Shown here one piece after another: positions 1,816 through 10,880 of a stretch of 64,000 nt of DNA (position 1 is its first letter; the number at the start of each line of letters is the position of its first letter). The translations under genes were made by a program, and so were the position numbers. This DNA comes from Sabulicella rubraurantiaca (GTDB lineage Bacteria > Pseudomonadota > Alphaproteobacteria > Acetobacterales > Acetobacteraceae), in NCBI RefSeq assembly GCF_017355885.1, contig NZ_JAFEUU010000001.1, forward strand, positions 62,001 through 126,000, given 5' to 3'. Below the pieces are notes generated by a model, which was not told the DNA's origin, did no database searches, and worked only from the letters and a program-made list of their open reading frames with translations.

Positions 1816-3323
1816 TACACGTCCCTCTGGTAGCGGCTCTGCCGAGCCAAGGCGACGATCCATTGCCGCGCCGCCTCGGCGTCCATGGCTCCCTCGCGCA
1901 TCGCAACCCCGCGCAGTGCGGCGTCCACGTCCTTCGCCATGCGCGAGGCATCGCCGCAGACATAGACATGCGCCCCATCCTGCAGCCAGCGCCACAGATC
2001 GGCCGAGGCCTCCGCCATGCGATGCTGCACGTAGTCCTTCGCGGCACCGTCGCGCGACCAGGCGAGGGACAGACGTTCCAGCGTACCGTCACCCTGCCAG
2101 GCAGCGATCTCGTCGCGGAACAGGAAGTCGGTGGCGGCATGGCGGTCGCCGAAGAACAGCCAAGTGCGGCCCTTCATTCCCAGTGCGGCGCGGTGCTGCA
2201 GGAAGGCGCGGAAGGGCGCGATGCCGGTGCCGGGCCCGATCATGATGACGGGCGTTTCCGCACGTTCGGGCAGGCGGAAATGGCTTTCCTGCACATGGGC
2301 GGGCACGGCGTCGGCGCGGAAGGCGAGGTGGCAGGACGCCACGCCATCCCGCACCCGTCCGCGGCGCTCCTCCCGCACCACGCCGACGCAAAGCTCCACC
2401 CTTCCGGGAACGGCGAGGGGGGAGGAGGCGATGGAGTAGAGCCGCAGCTTCAACACAGGAAGCGAGGCGACGAGGTCTGCGACGGGCGGCCGCGCGGACG
2501 GATAGGTGCGCAAGAGGTCCAGCAGATCCGCCCCATCCAGGATGCCCTCCTCGCCATCGGCCAGGGCGCGGAGCGCCTTCGCCTCCCCCGCGTCGCGCGC
2601 CGCCCCGGCCAGGAGGTCCAGCGTGCGGTCGAGCGGCCGGGCGATGTCGCGTTCCGCCGACAGCGCCTCGCGCAGTGCCTCGTCCCCGCCACCCAGGGCT
2701 GCAAGGACGGCATCTACCAGGGCCGGATCGTTGCGCGCGGCGACGCCCAGGCTGTCTCCTGGCTCGTAGCGCAGGGACGTGCCGGACAGGTCCAGCACGA
2801 TGCGGCGCACGTCCTTGCCGCTGCCCTCACCAGTCAGGCGCTGCGACAGGATGACCGGCGCGTGCTCCGCCGCGGGCTTCGCGGGCGTGGCGGCAATGGC
2901 CGGGGCCGCGGCGGGCTTCGCCTCCGCGACCAGCGCCTTCAGCGCCTCGCGCGTCGGCTTTCCGCCGGGCTGGCAAAGGGAAAGCGACGTCTCGGAGCCG
3001 TTCGCCAGCGCCTCGGCGTAGGTCTTGCAGACATAGCCGCACTGGCCGCAATCCAGCTGGGCCATCGCCGCCATCATGCGCCGCGCCGGCGCTCGCCCCT
3101 CGGCCAGGGCGAGCCGTTCCGGGAGCTCAAGGGCTGGGTCGTGCCAAGGGAAATCCTCTGGCGGGGCAGGGGGCGCGGCTGGCGCGGGGGCACCCGAGGC
3201 GCCGCCATAGAGCCCTGCCAGGAACCCGTTCAGCCATGCGCGCTGTTCCGGCGTGAAGGGGGCGCTGTCGGGGATCAGCGGCACCGGGGCGGGGCCGCCA
3301 AAATGCTGCGTCAGCATGTCCAT
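1812..3323 (-). CDS. CysJ-like diflavin-type reductase with an N-terminal Fe-S module
   Basis: Probable electron-input subunit for nitrite and/or nitrate reduction (503 aa). The C-terminal part is a ferredoxin-NADP reductase/CysJ-type FAD and NAD(P)H domain: RYEPGDSLGV, RLYSIASSP for FAD, GPGTGIAPFRAFLQ for the nucleotide, and a C-terminal RDVY. There is no flavodoxin domain. Instead, residues 92-117 hold CGQCGYVC followed by a fourth cysteine (C92, C95, C99, C117), like the four-cysteine Fe-S module of RnfB (PF04060-like). A Pro/Ala-rich linker joins it to an N-terminal helix, FTPEQRAWLNGFLAGLYGG, that resembles the N-terminus of CysJ. Its ATG overlaps the nirA stop (TGATG). Such proteins are usually labelled sulfite reductase alpha subunit; the operon argues for nitrite or nitrate reduction. 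Confidence 0.85.
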   Translation of the reverse strand: MDMLTQHFGGPAPVPLIPDSAPFTPEQRAWLNGFLAGLYGGASGAPAPAAPPAPPEDFPWHDPALELPERLALAEGRAPARRMMAAMAQLDCGQCGYVCKTYAEALANGSETSLSLCQPGGKPTREALKALVAEAKPAAAPAIAATPAKPAAEHAPVILSQRLTGEGSGKDVRRIVLDLSGTSLRYEPGDSLGVAARNDPALVDAVLAALGGGDEALREALSAERDIARPLDRTLDLLAGAARDAGEAKALRALADGEEGILDGADLLDLLRTYPSARPPVADLVASLPVLKLRLYSIASSPLAVPGRVELCVGVVREERRGRVRDGVASCHLAFRADAVPAHVQESHFRLPERAETPVIMIGPGTGIAPFRAFLQHRAALGMKGRTWLFFGDRHAATDFLFRDEIAAWQGDGTLERLSLAWSRDGAAKDYVQHRMAEASADLWRWLQDGAHVYVCGDASRMAKDVDAALRGVAMREGAMDAEAARQWIVALARQSRYQRDVY

Positions 3324-5008
3324 CAGCCGAGCATCCCGTCGAGCGCCGCGTCGTCGTGTCGCGCGCAGAAGGCCTGGAAGGGCTCGCCCGGCTCGCGCTC
3401 CGCGAGGAAGCGGCGGAGCAGGTTCAGCAGCAGCGGCGCCACCTCCTCCGCCGCCACCTTCGGGCGGATCAACCGCCCGATCGCCGCATCCTGTGCCGTG
3501 CCGCCGCCCAAATGGATGTCATAGCCCGGCAAGGTGTCCTCGCCGCGCTCCACCTTCGCGCCCAGCAGGCCGATATCGGCAATGAAATGCTGCGCGCAGG
3601 AATTCGGGCAGCCGGTGAGGTGGATGTTGAGAGGCGCGTCCAGCGAGATGCGCTCCTCCAAGAAGGCGGCGATGCGCTGCCCGTCGCCCTTGGTGTCGGC
3701 AGCGGCGAACTTGCAACCGGCCGACCCCGTGCAGGCGACGAGGCCGGCGCGAAGAGCGTTCGCCTCGTCGGTCAGGTTCAGGGCGCGCAGGGCCCCGCGC
3801 GCCGTCGCCACATCCGCCACATGCGGCAGGATGACATTCTGCCACACGGTCAGCCGCAGCTCCGGCGCCAGTGCCGCAAGGCCGCGCAGCTGGTCGGCGG
3901 ATAACCGCCCGGCAGGGACGACGACGCCGAGCCAGTGAAGCCTCTCCTTCTGCGGATGAGCCCCTAGATGCGCCGAACGGTCCTTGGGCGGTGGCGTCTC
4001 AAACCGGTCGAAGCGGGGCAGGGGGCTGCCCAGCAGCGCCTCCACCTCGCTGAGGAAGCGATCATGGCCCCATTTGTCCAGCAGGTATTTCAGCCGCGCC
4101 TTCTTGCGGTCGGTCCGGTCGCCATGCGCCAGAAAGACGCGCAGGATGGCGTCGCACAGCCGCACCACCTCGCCGGGCAGCACGGCGATGTCGGAGGGCC
4201 GCGCCAGATCCTTGTGGCCGGTGATTCCGCCCAGCCCCAGCCGGAAGCGCAACTCGCCCGACGGGACGCGAACTACCGACAGGGCGATGTCGTTGGTTTC
4301 CTCCAGCACGGCCACGGCCCCGCCGCCATCGATCGAGATGTTGAACTTGCGCGGGAGGCCGAACAGGTCGCGGCTGCTGAGGATGTGGTGGTGCAGCGCC
4401 CGCACGACGGGGCGCGTGTCCACCCACTCCAGCGGGTCGATGCCCACGGTGGGGGAGGCGGTGATGTTGCGGATATTGTCCGCCCCGGTGCCGCGCGGCA
4501 GCAGCCCGATCTCGCCGAGGCGCATCACCACCTCGGCGGCCTTGTCCGCCGGGATCAGGCGGATCTGGAGGTTGGCGCGCGTGGTCACGTCCACGTAGCC
4601 GCCGCCGCATTCCTCCGCGATGGCGGCGACCTCCCGCGCTTGGTGCGCCGAGAGGATGCCGCCCGGGATGCGGAGGCGGCACATGAAGGCGTCCTGGGCC
4701 GGGCCGACGAAGAACAGCCCGTGATACCGGCCAGCGAAATCCTCCAGGGGCTTGGGGAAGCTGCCCTTCTCCGCCCGTGCGGCGATCTCGTCCCACCGGT
4801 CCAGCGGGTGGCGCTCGCGCTTCATCTCCTCCTGCGGCACCAGCGTCCTGCCTTCCGCCAGGGTGCGGTCCTGCGCGGCGCGCAGCGCATCGGGCGGGGC
4901 GGTGCCTTCGGGGGAAGGCGCCAGCGAGCCGCGCCTTGCCTCCACCCCCGCCATGAAGCCCTTGAGGTAGTTCTGCTGCTCGGTCGAGAAGCCCTGGCCG
5001 TCCATCAT
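3323..5008 (-). CDS. nirA: NirA-family siroheme nitrite/sulfite reductase
   Basis: Six-electron reduction of nitrite to ammonium by a siroheme-[4Fe-4S] enzyme in the cytoplasm (561 aa). The cluster ligands are visible as C426-x5-C432 and C467-x3-C471, the latter within TGCPNSCAQH. Two nitrite/sulfite reductase ferredoxin-like half domains lie around residues 100-165 and 350-410. The N-terminus (FSTEQQNYLKGFMAGV) resembles that of the flavoprotein encoded next. The start ATG at 5008 has GGGAGG 6 nt upstream; a second ATG follows at once. It overlaps both neighbours. Sulfite cannot be excluded as substrate from sequence alone; nitrite is inferred from nrt, nasA and nasST in the same operon. Confidence 0.9.
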   Translation of the reverse strand: MMDGQGFSTEQQNYLKGFMAGVEARRGSLAPSPEGTAPPDALRAAQDRTLAEGRTLVPQEEMKRERHPLDRWDEIAARAEKGSFPKPLEDFAGRYHGLFFVGPAQDAFMCRLRIPGGILSAHQAREVAAIAEECGGGYVDVTTRANLQIRLIPADKAAEVVMRLGEIGLLPRGTGADNIRNITASPTVGIDPLEWVDTRPVVRALHHHILSSRDLFGLPRKFNISIDGGGAVAVLEETNDIALSVVRVPSGELRFRLGLGGITGHKDLARPSDIAVLPGEVVRLCDAILRVFLAHGDRTDRKKARLKYLLDKWGHDRFLSEVEALLGSPLPRFDRFETPPPKDRSAHLGAHPQKERLHWLGVVVPAGRLSADQLRGLAALAPELRLTVWQNVILPHVADVATARGALRALNLTDEANALRAGLVACTGSAGCKFAAADTKGDGQRIAAFLEERISLDAPLNIHLTGCPNSCAQHFIADIGLLGAKVERGEDTLPGYDIHLGGGTAQDAAIGRLIRPKVAAEEVAPLLLNLLRRFLAEREPGEPFQAFCARHDDAALDGMLG

Positions 5009-6177
5009 CCTGCCCTCCCGAGGGCCAGCGCCGCGCGGGAGCCGACCTGCCGCCGTGACGCGATCATCTCCATCAGTTCGCGGCTGCCACTCACGTCGCC
5101 GAACAGCACGGCGCCGACGAGCCTGCCTTCGCGCAGGAACAGGCGCCGATAGTGCTCCTCCTCGCGGTCAAGCAGCACCACCTGCTCAGCTTCCGGAGCG
5201 ATCTCGCCGGCTGACCACACGGCCGTGCCCGAGACCTTCAGCGCCGCCGAGTCGGCGCGCGGAGTCCAGAGGGCCAGCTCCCCCGCCAGTCGCGCCGCCG
5301 CTGCCTCGGCCTGGTCCAGCGCCGGGGCGACGAGGCCGATGCAGCGCCCCTCCACCTCCGCGCATTCACCGATTGCCTTCACATCGGGCCGGCTGGTCCG
5401 CAGCGTCGCATCCGTCAGGATGCCGCGTCCGACCGCGATGCCGCTCGCTTCCGCCAAGGCGGTATCCGGCCGGATGCCGACCGCCATGACTACGAGGCGG
5501 CAGGGAATGCGCCGCCCATCGGTCAGCGTCACCGCCTCCACTTTATGCGTCCCTTCGATGGAGGCGAGCCCTGCCGGCATGGCGAAGCGGATGCCGCGCC
5601 GCCGAAGCCGCCCGGCGAGCAGCCCGCCCGCGCCCTCATCCAGTTGCCTCTCCATGGGCCAGCCAACGGGATGCACCACGGTGACTTCCATGCCGCGCCG
5701 CGCCAGCCCGTCCGCCGCTTCCAGCCCAAGCAGGCCCCCGCCGACCACCACCGCACCCCCTCCGTCGCGCGCGGTGCGCAGCATGGCGCGCACCTCGGCC
5801 TCGGTGCGGTAGGCGTGGACGCCGGGGAGGGAGGAGCCCGGGACGTCGAGTCGAATGGCGCGAGACCCGGTGGCAATCACCGCACGGTCGAAACCGATGC
5901 GTTCGCCGCGGTCGGTCACCGCCTCCTGACCCTCCAGCGCCGCGATGCGCGTAGCCGGGCGGTAGTGGATCCGGAGGCCGCGCAGCACCGCGAGCGGATG
6001 TGTCAGCAGCGCCTCCGCCTCGCACTCGCCGGAGAGCCAGCGCGACAGTGCGACGCGGTCATAGGGCAGGGCGGGCTCCGCCCCGCAGAGCGTGACTGTG
6101 GCACCCGGGAGCCTTTCCGCCACACGAACGGCGCAGCGCGTCCCCGCCGGACCCGCCCCGATGACGAGGACACGCAT
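5005..6177 (-). CDS. FAD/NAD(P)H-dependent oxidoreductase of the nitrate operon
   Basis: Pyridine-nucleotide-disulfide oxidoreductase fold (390 aa), like the N-terminal half of NirB or rubredoxin reductase. It starts MRVLVIGAGPAGTRC, the FAD-binding Rossmann motif. A second Rossmann motif, VVVGGGLLGLEAADGLARRG, is near residue 145, and AVGIRPDTALAEASGIAVG near residue 235. It lacks the BFD-like [2Fe-2S] and siroheme domains of full NirB, so it probably passes electrons from NAD(P)H to another component. The ATG at 6177 overlaps the nrtD stop by one base; a GTG one codon earlier is possible. The true electron partner is not shown by the sequence. Confidence 0.82.
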   Translation of the reverse strand: MRVLVIGAGPAGTRCAVRVAERLPGATVTLCGAEPALPYDRVALSRWLSGECEAEALLTHPLAVLRGLRIHYRPATRIAALEGQEAVTDRGERIGFDRAVIATGSRAIRLDVPGSSLPGVHAYRTEAEVRAMLRTARDGGGAVVVGGGLLGLEAADGLARRGMEVTVVHPVGWPMERQLDEGAGGLLAGRLRRRGIRFAMPAGLASIEGTHKVEAVTLTDGRRIPCRLVVMAVGIRPDTALAEASGIAVGRGILTDATLRTSRPDVKAIGECAEVEGRCIGLVAPALDQAEAAAARLAGELALWTPRADSAALKVSGTAVWSAGEIAPEAEQVVLLDREEEHYRRLFLREGRLVGAVLFGDVSGSRELMEMIASRRQVGSRAALALGRAG

Positions 6178-6965
6178 CACGGCACCGGCTGCGCGTGGCG
6201 CGCGTGCAGGAATTCCAGCACCGAAGCGCGGTATTCGACGAAGCGATGGTCATGCGCCAGCTTCAGCCGGTCACGCGGGCGCGGCAGGTCCACCTCCAGG
6301 ATCTCGCCGATGGTGGCGTTGGGACCATTGGTCATCATCACGATGCGGTCGGACAGCAGCACCGCCTCATCCACGTCATGGGTGATCATGATGACCGTGG
6401 TGCCGAGGCTCGCATGGATGCGCATCACCTCGTCCTGCAAATGGGCGCGCGTCAGCGCGTCCAGAGCGCCAAAGGGCTCGTCCAGCAGCAGAACCTTGGG
6501 CTTCATCGCCAGCGCACGGGCGATGCCCACGCGCTGCTTCATGCCGCCCGAGATCTCCGCGGGGCGCTTGTCCTTGGCGTGCCCCATCTTCACGAGGTCG
6601 AGGTTGCGCAGCGTCCACTCGTGCCGCTCCGCCTTGCCCATCATGCCGGCGAGGGTCCGGTCCACCGCGAGGCGCACATTTTCGTAGGCGGTGAGCCAGG
6701 GCAGCAGCGAATGGTTCTGGAACACCACCGCGCGGTCCGGGCCCGGATTCGTCACTTCCTGCCCCTCAAGCAGGACGCCGCCCAGCGTGGCGGGTAGCAA
6801 CCCCGCCACCACGTTCAGAAGCGTGGACTTGCCGCAGCCCGAATGGCCGATGACGGAGACGTACTCCCCAGCCGCGATGCGCAGCTCGACGTCATGCAGC
6901 ACCGGCAGCGGCGCGCGAGGGAATGCGACGGAGAGGCGGGAGATTTCCAGGAAGGGCGTGTTCAT
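6177..6965 (-). CDS. nrtD: Nitrate ABC transporter ATP-binding protein
   Basis: ATPase of the nitrate/nitrite importer (262 aa). It has Walker A GHSGCGKST near residue 39, the signature SGGMKQRVGIARAL near 140, Walker B VLLLDEPFGALD near 160, and a switch histidine in IMITHDVDEAV. This places it in the NrtD/SsuB/TauB group. It is a single-domain ATPase with no NrtC-type receptor fusion, so one ATPase probably forms the homodimer. The gene lies 4 bp after nrtB and overlaps the next gene. Confidence 0.92.
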   Translation of the reverse strand: MNTPFLEISRLSVAFPRAPLPVLHDVELRIAAGEYVSVIGHSGCGKSTLLNVVAGLLPATLGGVLLEGQEVTNPGPDRAVVFQNHSLLPWLTAYENVRLAVDRTLAGMMGKAERHEWTLRNLDLVKMGHAKDKRPAEISGGMKQRVGIARALAMKPKVLLLDEPFGALDALTRAHLQDEVMRIHASLGTTVIMITHDVDEAVLLSDRIVMMTNGPNATIGEILEVDLPRPRDRLKLAHDHRFVEYRASVLEFLHARHAQPVP

Positions 6966-6969
6966 CGCC

Positions 6970-7830
6970 TCAGCCCTCCGAGGTGCCGCGGGTGACGAGG
7001 CGCCCGACCAGCGCCACCGCGCGGTCCAGCACGAAGCCGGTCAGCCCCACATAGGCGAGGGCCACCATGATGTCGGACAGGTTGGAGGAGTTCCACGCAT
7101 CCCAGATGAAGAAGCCGATCCCCACCCCGCCGATCAGCATCTCCGCCGCAACGATGGCGAGCCAGGACAGTCCGATGCCAATGCGAAGCCCGGTGAAGAT
7201 GAAGGGCGCCGCCGCGGGCAGCAGGATGCGGAGGAAGTAGGAAACGCCGGTCAGGCGGATCACCGCGGCCACGTTGCGGTAATCCTGCGGCACGTTCCGC
7301 ACGCCCACCGCCGTGTTGATGATGACGGGCCAGACGCTGGTGATGAAGATCACGAAGATCGCGCTAGGCTGCGCCTCCTGGAAGGCGGCCAGCGATAGCG
7401 GCAGCCAAGCCAGCGGCGGGACGGTTCGCAGCACCTGGAAGACTGGGTCCAGCCCCCGCATCGCCAGCGGCGATGTGCCGATCAGGAGGCCCGTCAGCAC
7501 TCCCACCACGGCAGCGAGGGCGAAGCCCATTGCCACGCGGGAGAGCGAGGCGGCGAGGTGCCAGAACAACCCCTTGTCCAGCCCGCCATTGTCGAAGAAG
7601 GGATCGGTGATGAGCTCGCGCGCATCCGCCCAGATTTTGGAGGGCGGCGGCAGCGTCGCGCCCGGTGTGCTCATCACGAGTTCCCACAGGAGGCCGAGCA
7701 GCAGCACGACGAGAAGCGGCGGCACCACGTCGCGGGTGCGTCGTGCCCAGGCGCTCTCGCTCGTCACCAGGGTTCGCGGCAGGCTCAGCAGTGGCTTGGC
7801 CGGGGCGGCCTTGCGGATGGAGGCGTTCAT
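6970..7830 (-). CDS. nrtB: Nitrate ABC transporter permease
   Basis: Inner-membrane permease of the nitrate importer (286 aa), binding-protein-dependent transport family. A hydrophobic segment at about residues 35-52 (VVPPLLVVLLLGLLWELV) is followed by five more membrane spans. The cytoplasmic EAA-like loop reads NTAVGVRNVPQDYRNVAA, and the NrtB-type stretch FIWDAWNSSNLSDIMVAL follows. It sits between nrtA (3-bp gap) and nrtD (4-bp gap), so translation is probably coupled. Confidence 0.92.
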   Translation of the reverse strand: MNASIRKAAPAKPLLSLPRTLVTSESAWARRTRDVVPPLLVVLLLGLLWELVMSTPGATLPPPSKIWADARELITDPFFDNGGLDKGLFWHLAASLSRVAMGFALAAVVGVLTGLLIGTSPLAMRGLDPVFQVLRTVPPLAWLPLSLAAFQEAQPSAIFVIFITSVWPVIINTAVGVRNVPQDYRNVAAVIRLTGVSYFLRILLPAAAPFIFTGLRIGIGLSWLAIVAAEMLIGGVGIGFFIWDAWNSSNLSDIMVALAYVGLTGFVLDRAVALVGRLVTRGTSEG

Positions 7831-7833
7831 GGC

Positions 7834-9087
7834 TCAGGCGCCCCCGTTCTTGCGAATGGATTGCGCCTCGATCCAGGCGCGCGGGTTCTCCGGGTCGAAG
7901 ACCTTGCCGTCGAAGAATGTCTCGCGTCCGCGGCTGGTGCCGGTGGGTGTGTCGGCGGCATGGACACCCGCGCGTTCCGCCGCCTCGCGCCAGATGCCCT
8001 CGCGATTCACCTGGGCAATGGTGCCGGCGCTGTCGAAATCCATCGGGAGGATGCCCCAGCGCTGGTTCTCGGCGAGGAACCACAGGTCATGGGAGCGGAA
8101 GGGGTAGCTGGCGTGGTCGCGCCAGAACTTCATGGTGGTGTCGGTGTTGGTGACGCGGCGGCCATCGCCGTAATCCACCTCGCCACGCTGGCGGCCGAGG
8201 ATGTCGGCGGGCGGCACGTTGAACCACGCGCGGCGGCCCAGGATGGCGCACATCTCCTCCTTGTTTGCCATCGCGTCGCACCACTGCGCGGCCTCGATCA
8301 CGGCGGCCAGCAGGGCGCGGGTGGCGTTTGGGTGGCGCTCCACGAAGTCGGCGCGTAGGGCGAAGCACTTCTCCGGGTGGTCCTTCCAAAGCTCCCCGGT
8401 GGTGAGTGCCGTGTAGCCGAGGCGCTGGGTGACGAGCTGGGCGTTCCAGGGCTCGCCGACGCAGAAGGCGTCCATGGTTCCGACGCGCATGTTCGCCACC
8501 ATCTGCGGCGGCGGCACCACGATGGTGGACACATCACGCTCAGGGTCCACGCCGCCGGCGGCCAGCCAGTAGCGGATCCAGAGATCATGCGTGCCGCCCC
8601 GAAAGGTCATGGCCACCTTGCTGTCGCCGTTCACCGCGCGCTTCAGCGGCGCACTGTCCAGCTTCAGACCCAGCGCGGCGTGCTTTGCGGCGACGGAGAT
8701 GGCCTGGCCGTTGGTGTTCAGCCGCGCCAGCAGCGCCATCGGCACGGGTTGATTGTTCTGGACGATGCGGCCGGTGTGGATCAGGTAGGCCATCGGCGTC
8801 AGCAGATGCGCGCCGTCGATGCCGCCCGACCCGCCTCCCAGCACGAGGTTATCCCGCGTCGCGCCCCACGAGGCCTGCTTCGCGACCTCTACTTCCGGCA
8901 TGCCATGCTTGGCGAAGAAGCCCTTCTCCTTCGCGATGATCAGCGGCGCGGCGTCGGTCAGCGCGATGTAGCCGAGAGTGGCCTTGCGAACCTCCGGAGT
9001 GGTTTCGCCCTGTCCGAAGACGCCGCGCGGCGCGGCGGCGAGCAGGGCGGTCGTGGCGAGGATGGCCTGGCGTCGGGTGGCGTTCAT
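7834..9087 (-). CDS. nrtA: Nitrate-binding periplasmic protein NrtA, Tat-type signal
   Basis: Substrate-binding component of the NrtABD importer (417 aa). The N-terminus MNATRRQAILATTALLAAA looks like a Tat signal (RRQAIL) followed by a hydrophobic stretch ending at FGQG. NrtA/CmpA family segments include LGYIALTDAAPLIIAKEKGFF, GIDGAHLLTPMAYLI, CVGEPWNAQLV and a DHPEKCFALRADFVE segment. The reading frame stays open further upstream, but the ATG at 9087 is preferred: it gives the signal peptide and overlaps the stop of nasS as ATGA. Confidence 0.92.
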   Translation of the reverse strand: MNATRRQAILATTALLAAAPRGVFGQGETTPEVRKATLGYIALTDAAPLIIAKEKGFFAKHGMPEVEVAKQASWGATRDNLVLGGGSGGIDGAHLLTPMAYLIHTGRIVQNNQPVPMALLARLNTNGQAISVAAKHAALGLKLDSAPLKRAVNGDSKVAMTFRGGTHDLWIRYWLAAGGVDPERDVSTIVVPPPQMVANMRVGTMDAFCVGEPWNAQLVTQRLGYTALTTGELWKDHPEKCFALRADFVERHPNATRALLAAVIEAAQWCDAMANKEEMCAILGRRAWFNVPPADILGRQRGEVDYGDGRRVTNTDTTMKFWRDHASYPFRSHDLWFLAENQRWGILPMDFDSAGTIAQVNREGIWREAAERAGVHAADTPTGTSRGRETFFDGKVFDPENPRAWIEAQSIRKNGGA

Positions 9088-10058
9088 GAGGTCACTCCAT
9101 GATGGGAAGCGGGGGCAAGGCGGCGCGCCGCCTCGGGCTGGAGGGAGCGCGCCCAGGGGGCGAGCAGGGCGGCGTCGGCGATGTCGGGCGGGAGGTGACC
9201 GGCCTCGCGCATCTCGGCGATCCAGCGGGAGGCGCCTTCCGCGGTGGCTTCGGGCACGAAACCCATGCGGTGCGTCCCGTCGAAGGCGGAGGCGATGACG
9301 GCGTCGGGCAGGGCGGGGAAGGCGCGGCGGCGCAGGATCGCCACTGCTTCCTCCCGGTTCTCCGGCGCGTTCAGCCACGCTCCTGCCGCAAGGATCGCGG
9401 CGGTTGCGGCCAGCGCGGCCTCACGCCGCGCCTCCGCGACGTCACCGCGGAACGCCAGCAGCTTCTCCGGATGGTCCGGCCAGAGCGCGGCGGTGCCCGC
9501 CACAACTCGGCCCAGCCGGGAGGCCTCGGCGGCGGCCGGCCAGGGTGCGCCGGCGCAGAAGCCATCAATCACCCCCTGCGCGACCAGATCGGCCATGGCG
9601 GGCGGGGGCGCGGCGAGCGGCACGGCATCCTCCACACCCTGTGCGGCGAGCCAGCGGCGCAGCAGGTAATGATGCGCAGAGAAGGGGTGAACGATGCCAA
9701 GCCGCGCCCCGGGCCGCAGCCCGGTCTCGAGCGCGCGCCACGACAGGAAGATACCGTTGCCGTTGCGCGACAGCCCGCATCCGACCGCCAGATCGGCGCG
9801 GATCCCACCAGCGCCGGCTCCGAGCGCCAGGGCAAGCGGGGTCAGCAGATGCGCTCCGTCGAGCGCCCCGAAGGCAAGCCTATCCCGCAGGCCCGCCCAG
9901 GACGTCTCGGGGGCGAGCGCCGCGCGCAGCCCCACGGCCTGGAAGAAGCCAAGTGCCTCCGCCACCAGCAGGGGCGCCGCGTCCACCAGCGGCACGCATC
10001 CGAGGCGCAAGGCTGGCGCGTCGGGACGGAGATTGGGGAGTGACAGGTCGAGCGGCAC
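9084..10058 (-). CDS. nasS: NasS-type nitrate/nitrite sensor (NrtA-like, cytoplasmic)
   Basis: Homolog of NrtA/CmpA (324 aa) with no signal peptide: it starts MPLDLSLPNLRPDAPALRLG. It keeps the family motifs GALDGAHLLTPLALAL, GFCAGAPWPAAAEAS and WPDHPEKLLAFRGDVAE. In the well-studied NasS/NasT pair, NasS holds the ANTAR protein NasT until nitrate or nitrite binds. Missing export signal plus nasT next door makes that role likely. The start is GTG at 10058. The alternative, a second unexported receptor of unknown ligand, is less likely. Confidence 0.85.
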   Translation of the reverse strand: MPLDLSLPNLRPDAPALRLGCVPLVDAAPLLVAEALGFFQAVGLRAALAPETSWAGLRDRLAFGALDGAHLLTPLALALGAGAGGIRADLAVGCGLSRNGNGIFLSWRALETGLRPGARLGIVHPFSAHHYLLRRWLAAQGVEDAVPLAAPPPAMADLVAQGVIDGFCAGAPWPAAAEASRLGRVVAGTAALWPDHPEKLLAFRGDVAEARREAALAATAAILAAGAWLNAPENREEAVAILRRRAFPALPDAVIASAFDGTHRMGFVPEATAEGASRWIAEMREAGHLPPDIADAALLAPWARSLQPEAARRLAPASHHGVTS

Positions 10059-10100
10059 GCGGCGCCACCGGCTTCGGGCGGGCCGTCCTGGGCCGCCGGG

Positions 10101-10138
10101 AAAAGGGATGGGCCGCGTGGGGTGCGCCCTTGCATCCC
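10101..10138 (-). terminator. GC-rich terminator-like hairpin before nasS
   Basis: On the minus strand, GGGAT (10138-10134) and GGGC (10129-10126), separated by a 4-nt bulge, pair with GCCC (10113-10110) and ATCCC (10109-10105). TTTT follows directly (10104-10101). It lies about 43 nt upstream of nasS, where a NasT-controlled terminator would be expected. Confidence 0.5.
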
Positions 10139-10194
10139 GCCCATGCCCGAAGCCCTACCAGCGCTTCGGCGGTGCAGCAAAGCAAAAATGCACG

Positions 10195-10226
10195 AAAAAA
10201 AGTCCATCAGCTTGTTATATGCTGAT
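10195..10226 (-). terminator. Hairpin plus T run after nasT
   Basis: On the minus strand, ATCAGC (10226-10221) pairs with GCTGAT (10211-10206) across a 9-nt loop. GGAC and then seven T (10201-10195) follow. The stem begins 16 nt after the nasT stop. The stem is short and AT-rich, so it is a weak intrinsic terminator, or part of the leader's regulatory folding. Confidence 0.5.
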
Positions 10227-10241
10227 TCTTAGGCTAATTGC

Positions 10242-10802
10242 CTAAATATTGTTCAGATACTGTGCCGCAGCCTGCCCGAGCCCGACCCTCCGAGTCATCG
10301 CCAAGCGCTGCAATCGCCGATGTGCCTCGGGTTCCGAAAGACCTTCATCGCGCATCAGGCGCCGCTTCGCCTTGGCGATGCGGTCGCGTTCCTCGATCGT
10401 CGCGCGGGCCTGGGCGAGTTCGGCCCGCAACGCTTCATGAGCGCGGAAGCGCAGGATTGCGACCTCCAGCACCCTTCGCACCCGCGCCGGGGAAAGCCCC
10501 TCCACCACATAGGCCGCAACCCCTGCCTCCAGCGCTGCGCTGATCTGCTCCGGCGCACCACGCTCGGCGAAGAGCACCACCGGGCGGGGTTCGTCGCGAT
10601 TCAGGGCGCGCATCGCCTCCAGCGCATCGCGGGATGGGTCGTCCATGTCGCAGACGATGACATTCGCACCTGAGTCGCGGACGCGTGCCGTCAGGTTGGC
10701 GACATCAGGCGCGATGGCGACAACGGTGCATCCCGTCGCCTCCAGCCCCTCGCGCACCGCCTGGGCGCGCGCTGCCTCGGCATCCACAAGCAGAATCTTC
10801 AG
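10242..10802 (-). CDS. nasT: ANTAR-domain response regulator NasT
   Basis: Antiterminator of the nitrate operon (186 aa with the start used here). The receiver-like domain occupies about residues 1-115, with KILLVD as first strand, NVIVCDMDDPSRD, and AYVVEGLSPARV. A coiled-coil linker (ELAQARATIEERDRI) leads into the ANTAR domain with AKRRLMRDEGLSEPEAHRRL. No ATG, GTG or TTG gives an intact first beta strand. GTG at 10787 would remove KILLV. CTG at 10802, with GGGGG about 8-9 nt upstream, restores LKILLVDAEAAR and fits NasT proteins that begin MKILIVD. The CTG start is therefore my choice but unproven. Confidence 0.88.
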   Translation of the reverse strand: MKILLVDAEAARAQAVREGLEATGCTVVAIAPDVANLTARVRDSGANVIVCDMDDPSRDALEAMRALNRDEPRPVVLFAERGAPEQISAALEAGVAAYVVEGLSPARVRRVLEVAILRFRAHEALRAELAQARATIEERDRIAKAKRRLMRDEGLSEPEAHRRLQRLAMTRRVGLGQAAAQYLNNI

Positions 10803-10880
10803 CGTCCCAGACCCCCGGCATGGTGCCCGGCGCTGGCGTCATTCCCTGCTCCCCAGTCTGCCCGATGCGCAGCCCGCGCG

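Follow-up and report, generated by a model that had tools for sequence, protein, structure and literature searches.

What signal lies in the 183 nt that separate nasT from nasS (10059-10241, minus strand) in the window, the 64,000-nt stretch of Sabulicella rubraurantiaca DNA that we analyzed, and what does it control? An initial annotation had read this gap as a NasT-controlled antitermination leader. A NasT-type leader does lie between the two genes, but the hairpins that had been named, the intrinsic terminator, and antitermination in its usual sense did not hold up. The features of the locus are collected in Table 1.

TABLE 1 Features of the nasT-nasS gap and the flanking operon (window coordinates)
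Feature	Coordinates	Strand	Description
nasT	10242..10811	-	Receiver plus ANTAR RNA-binding regulator; Pfam PF03861 (46.5 bits) and PF00072
T-rich GCATTTTT plus CTTGC/CTTGAC-like -35 candidate	10175..10191	-	Lies about 43 nt before P1; reads CTTTGC in the window; genus-conserved
P1 hairpin	10119..10138	-	GGGAUGC-AAGGGC-GCACCCC; A1 and G4 in an ANTAR hexaloop; window stem has a single A-C mismatch
P1-P2 linker	10098..10118	-	C-rich; contains TTTT
P2 hairpin	10077..10097	-	GGCGGCC-CAGGAC-GGCC(C)GCC; hexaloop with G4, C1 instead of A1
P2-to-nasS stretch	10059..10076	-	18 nt; GGTGG (10069-10065) is SD-like and complementary to the P2 3' strand
nasS	9084..10058	-	Cytoplasmic nitrate sensor; NMT1_2, 195 bits (Pfam); GTG start; first gene after the leader
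nrtA	7834..9087	-	4-nt overlap with nasS
nrtB	6970-7830	-	Part of the packed block 3323..7830
nrtC	6177-6965	-	Part of the packed block 3323..7830
NirB-N-like FAD reductase	5005-6180	-	Part of the packed block 3323..7830
NirA-type nitrite reductase	3323-5008	-	Part of the packed block 3323..7830

The gene identities fit a NasS/NasT pair: a receiver-ANTAR protein is encoded beside an NrtA-like protein that, in contrast to NrtA itself, has no signal peptide. The position of the TTG/GTG start codon of nasS is conserved. NasT is the sole ANTAR protein of the genome (a single match in a genome-wide search). By our own mapping onto EutV, NasT appears to retain most of the RNA-contacting residues, including the Met plug (equivalents of R142, K147, K149, E160, M172, and R175), and has H in place of Y164, the Tyr that stacks on G4. 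The genes from nasS through nrtA, nrtB, nrtC, and the NirB-N-like reductase to nirA abut or overlap, the close packing that the initial annotation had noted, and the leader precedes a nasS-nrtABC-nir operon for nitrate assimilation in a genome that encodes NasT. The suggestion that the gap is the only place within the operon where NasT could act is consistent with our covariance model, R2, whose one match in the genome with E <0.2 was at window 10077-10139 (50.3 bits, E 2.9e-6; its training set included the window and some congeners). Nitrite reduction is apparently carried out by the NirB-N-terminal-like FAD reductase and the adjoining NirA-type sirohaem protein (3323-6180), whose genes overlap by 4 nt.

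The three inverted repeats named earlier are present as strings (10245-10229, 10226-10206, and 10145-10101) but are not conserved in nine congeners. We rejected them as functional hairpins; none was kept in an alignment of the ten nasT-nasS gaps of the genus. The gap as a whole folded barely better than its shuffles (z -1.8). The TTTT (10104-10101) that was taken, with a GC-rich stem, for an intrinsic terminator recurred in one of the nine congeners (L008), and the others are C-rich there; in the window it lies upstream of P2, in the linker. A terminator scan of the window gave no terminator-like site on the transcribed (minus) strand. The repeat at 10229-10245 is small and A/T-rich, spans the nasT stop codon, and is terminator-like on the plus strand only.

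The conserved signal in the gap is a different one, a pair of hexaloop hairpins, P1 and P2, that was absent from the earlier list. In the alignment of the ten genus gaps it formed a nearly invariant block consisting of a hairpin GGGAUGC-AAUGGC-GCAUCCC, a C-rich linker, and a hairpin GGYGGCC-CAKGAC-GGYCCGCC. The divergent genus member L011 carries the form seen in the rest of the family, and in most of the Acetobacteraceae the second loop is AANGRC. ANTAR-target RNAs are recognized by two hexaloop hairpins with A at loop position 1 and G at position 4 (PMC3369931, PMC8934654). G4 is present in both loops of the window and was invariant in 42 distinct elements. A1 is present in P1, while P2 has C1 in nine of the ten genus leaders, including the window, and A1 elsewhere in the family; in the EutV structure, A1 is not specifically contacted (PMC8934654). 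Rfam searches returned nothing relevant at the locus. We are highly confident that P1/P2 is an ANTAR RNA recognized by NasT.

The element was found in nearly every nasT-nasS gap of the Acetobacteraceae that we examined. Tandem AANG hexaloop hairpins occurred in 53 of 77 gap loci (drawn from two partially overlapping collections), versus 0.1 expected from dinucleotide shuffles and 0 in a nasT coding control; the exceptions were mostly from the window's own genus, in which the P2 loop is CAKGAY. Both adjacent stem-loops kept their 6-nt loops across the family and showed compensatory changes, in P1 at seven of eight pairs. Over both stems of the 42 distinct elements, the covariation score was 0.443, compared with 0.138 ± 0.014 for shuffles (0 of 500 as high) and 0.06 to 0.12 for slid controls. 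The same elements had 84.4% paired cells versus 67.2% in shuffles and 109 double-change cells versus 40. Alignment with related Acetobacteraceae, which the initial annotation had put forward as a check, thus bore out a conserved, strongly covarying NasT (ANTAR)-type leader, though with other hairpins than those named. Sequence comparison establishes the element together with its structure and location, and also the lack of an intrinsic terminator (described below). A reading of P2 as coding sequence (CCC-ATG-ACG...) was rejected because one-base indels between congeners break the frame and the ATG is missing in three of them.

The element also tracked NasT. R2 matched at the nasT-nasS place in all 10 genus genomes with NasT (E from 2e-8 to 3e-6) and in none of the 11 that lack a full NasT (where the best E was about 0.1), one of which, G010, has a 44-residue NasT-like fragment. 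Because several genus sequences were in the R2 training set, the negative half of this co-occurrence is the informative half. Across the order, 64 of 397 genomes matched R2. Further copies stand before nirB, a formate/nitrite transporter gene, the siroheme synthase gene cysG/cobA, nrtA, narK-type MFS genes, and displaced nasS genes; together they look like a NasT regulon. In Roseomonas pecuniae (L088, 5561-5846) and in L059, a P1-P2 leader stands immediately before nrtB, and nasS and nrtA are missing there; in a related genome (L153), nasS is elsewhere with its own P1-P2 leader. Within the window's genus, a second, weaker R2 match (L152, 2997-3058, minus strand, 36.5 bits) has no nitrate gene directly downstream and is probably a chance or decayed copy.

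Upstream of P1 is a position-locked element resembling a -35 box. CTTG[AC] occurred in 30 of 49 family leaders, versus 29% expected, and was clustered at positions -41 to -48 relative to P1; the family leaders showed no conserved -10. Scores for a full sigma-70 promoter equaled those of shuffles, the -35-like part alone being position-locked, and inspection by eye ruled against the CTTGC box as a sigma-54 site, since it lacks a correctly spaced GG/GC pair. This element is what would favor taking the palindromes as operator DNA for a transcription factor, or as plain nasS promoter sequence, and not as RNA. We consider that reading very improbable: stem sequences vary while pairing is kept, G-U pairs are many, the loops are invariant, and the R2 matches follow NasT.

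In outgroup leaders, the loop and 3' strand of P2 double as the 5' arm of a U-tailed terminator (e.g., AACGGCGUUCC...GGAACGCCGUUUUU), which is the textbook arrangement; examples of terminator-type leaders outside the family are L098, L099, L101, L103, L201, L203, and L205 to L207. Eleven of 13 inspected outgroup leaders, selected partly by eye, had a T-run. Among 53 Acetobacteraceae leaders, 51 had no T-run after P2 and the other two had one within a hairpin loop; the window had none. Neither the Acetobacteraceae leaders nor the window thus showed a terminator with a U tail that overlaps P2 ahead of the first gene. From the end of P2 to the start codon is 13 to 47 nt in the family (18 in the window), which leaves little or no room for one. 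The textbook form in relatives favors the view that NasT antiterminates classically at an intrinsic terminator, as first proposed. Given the missing T-runs, a TTTT that is upstream of P2 and shared by one of nine congeners, and the empty minus-strand scan, we regard this as improbable; antitermination in the usual sense is not supported because its terminator is not.

The family form differs from the EutV/eut, NasR/nasF, and AmiR/amiE antiterminator systems in having no U-tailed terminator over P2 and a loop-to-loop distance of 38 to 72 nt. It resembles them in its two hexaloop hairpins, in G4 in both, in A1 in P1 (and in P2, except in the window's genus, with C1), and in the adjoining ANTAR gene.

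With no usual stop signal, and with the element just before the nasS start, P1/P2 probably controls either translation or Rho-dependent termination. We propose that the nasS-nrtABC-nir operon has its 5' leader in this gap and that P1 plus P2 form a dual-hexaloop ANTAR target for NasT. Without nitrate, NasS would hold NasT, and P2 would be mostly unformed in the leader fold. The loop and 3' strand of P2 in the unbound leader would pair with the nasS ribosome-binding region, giving low expression of nasS and, through coupling or polarity, of the operon. Nitrate would release NasT, which would capture P1 and P2 and free the nasS start. NasS would then rise and could recapture NasT, and this negative feedback would set the NasS:NasT ratio. 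For the whole chain, from NasT-bound P1/P2 leader through release of the ribosome-binding site (RBS) to feedback, we judge the chances to be slightly short of even; we infer NasT binding, activation, and the RBS mechanism.

RNAalifold, run on the genus alignment, paired the 3' strand of P2 with the nasS SD region and not with the P2 5' strand, and 92% of the cells in this helix were paired. In 28 sequence clusters, which are not fully independent, pairing of P2 with its own downstream sequence exceeded that with swapped partners (p = 0.011). The best duplex abutted the start codon in 79% of cases, versus 41% when shuffled and 36% at other genes. The mean probability in the free ensemble was 0.24 for P2 and 0.80 for P1. 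Clamping P1 and P2 raised RBS accessibility from 0.27 to 0.38 (Wilcoxon p = 0.013 versus shuffled tails); here too the clusters are partly dependent, and the effects are moderate. In the window alone, P2 formed at 0.69 unaided, and clamping changed RBS accessibility by 0.00 (0.20 to 0.20). Leader by leader, P2-RBS complementarity reached p < 0.05 in 13% only, and several clusters had none. Modeled folding thus offers the RBS switch moderate support across the family and nil in the window alone. The missing A1 in the window's P2 and the mismatch in its P1 also count against the proposed chain.

NasT might instead antiterminate Rho-dependent termination, with Rho loading on the C-rich linker and the poorly translated start of nasS unless NasT on P1/P2 prevents it. 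Such a mechanism would let NasT act on transcription, as has been proposed for Paracoccus (PMC5424462), and agrees with the lack of intrinsic terminators in the family leaders. C-minus-G was 0.25 in the P1-P2 linker (49 leaders) and 0.157 in the first 75 nt of nasS, versus 0.003 at other ORF starts, a control set that includes spurious ORFs. However, the interior of nasS is also C-rich (0.108), and leaders such as L158 have only 6 nt from P2 to the SD. We consider Rho control possible but rather unlikely.

NasT binding could also repress nasS, P2 ending as close to the start codon as it does. RBS-proximal ANTAR RNAs of Mycobacteria repress translation, and the documented translational ANTAR control is of this repressive kind (PMC8164766). 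Those actinobacterial RNAs resemble the present element in being near the start codon and in mostly lacking a terminator; they bury the RBS in the bound hairpins and repress where tested, whereas here the RBS follows P2 and binding is expected to activate. Moreover, the element also precedes nirB, nrtA, and narK, which have to be expressed when nitrate is present, and NasT acts positively in Paracoccus and on Bradyrhizobium nos (PMC3795266, PMC6759348). Repression is, in our view, quite improbable. 

To return to RBS release, a broader reading is that the whole NasT regulon of the Acetobacteraceae, the inhibitor NasS included, lost its intrinsic terminators and became a translation-activating, RBS-release ANTAR switch. 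We hold this tentatively, with the balance somewhat against it.

The initial annotation had further placed nasS inside the NasT-controlled unit, with nitrate raising its own sensor. The arrangement was supported and is family-wide, but the circuit is better described as negative feedback: NasS inhibits NasT (PMC3795266), and if a NasT-activated leader controls nasS, free NasT would raise its own inhibitor. Such a feedback is likely, though not by way of intrinsic antitermination. Since the leader is conserved in the Acetobacteraceae with strong covariation and tracks NasT, the autoregulatory arrangement appears real and old. In Paracoccus denitrificans (nasT-nasS-[leader]-nasABGHC), a NasS/NasT pair likewise accompanies a hairpin leader upstream of the nitrate assimilation genes; the nasA leader is bound by NasT (PMC3795266), and mutation of hairpin HI abolishes induction (PMC5424462). 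There, however, nasT and nasS both precede the leader, outside the controlled unit, whereas in the window the leader comes before nasS and lacks an intrinsic terminator. In the literature searched, most of it outside subscription journals, we found no description of NasT leaders in the Acetobacteraceae or before nasS.

These results give a defined, covariation-supported RNA element, unreported by Rfam at this locus, and place the sensor NasS under the control of its own partner NasT. They predict a nitrate-assimilation regulon across some 20 to 30 genera. Related lineages use the same ANTAR hairpins, some with an intrinsic terminator and some lacking one, and a shift of ANTAR control from terminators to ribosome-binding sites or Rho becomes directly testable.

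By sequence, the leader-before-nasS arrangement is common to the Acetobacteraceae but not unique to them. Some other Alphaproteobacteria (L201, L207, and L101) carry a classical terminator leader in the nasT-nasS gap, nasS being assigned there by its higher identity to NasS than to NrtA. These leaders and those of L098 and L099 share with the window form the position after nasT, the hexaloops, and nasS in the controlled unit, and differ from it in their own P2-overlapping, U-tailed intrinsic terminator. Roughly half of the outgroup loci have nasT directly adjoining nasS or overlapping it. In L098, L099, L203, L205, and L206, the order is nasT-[terminator leader]-nrtA...-nasS, with nasS in the controlled unit several genes downstream.
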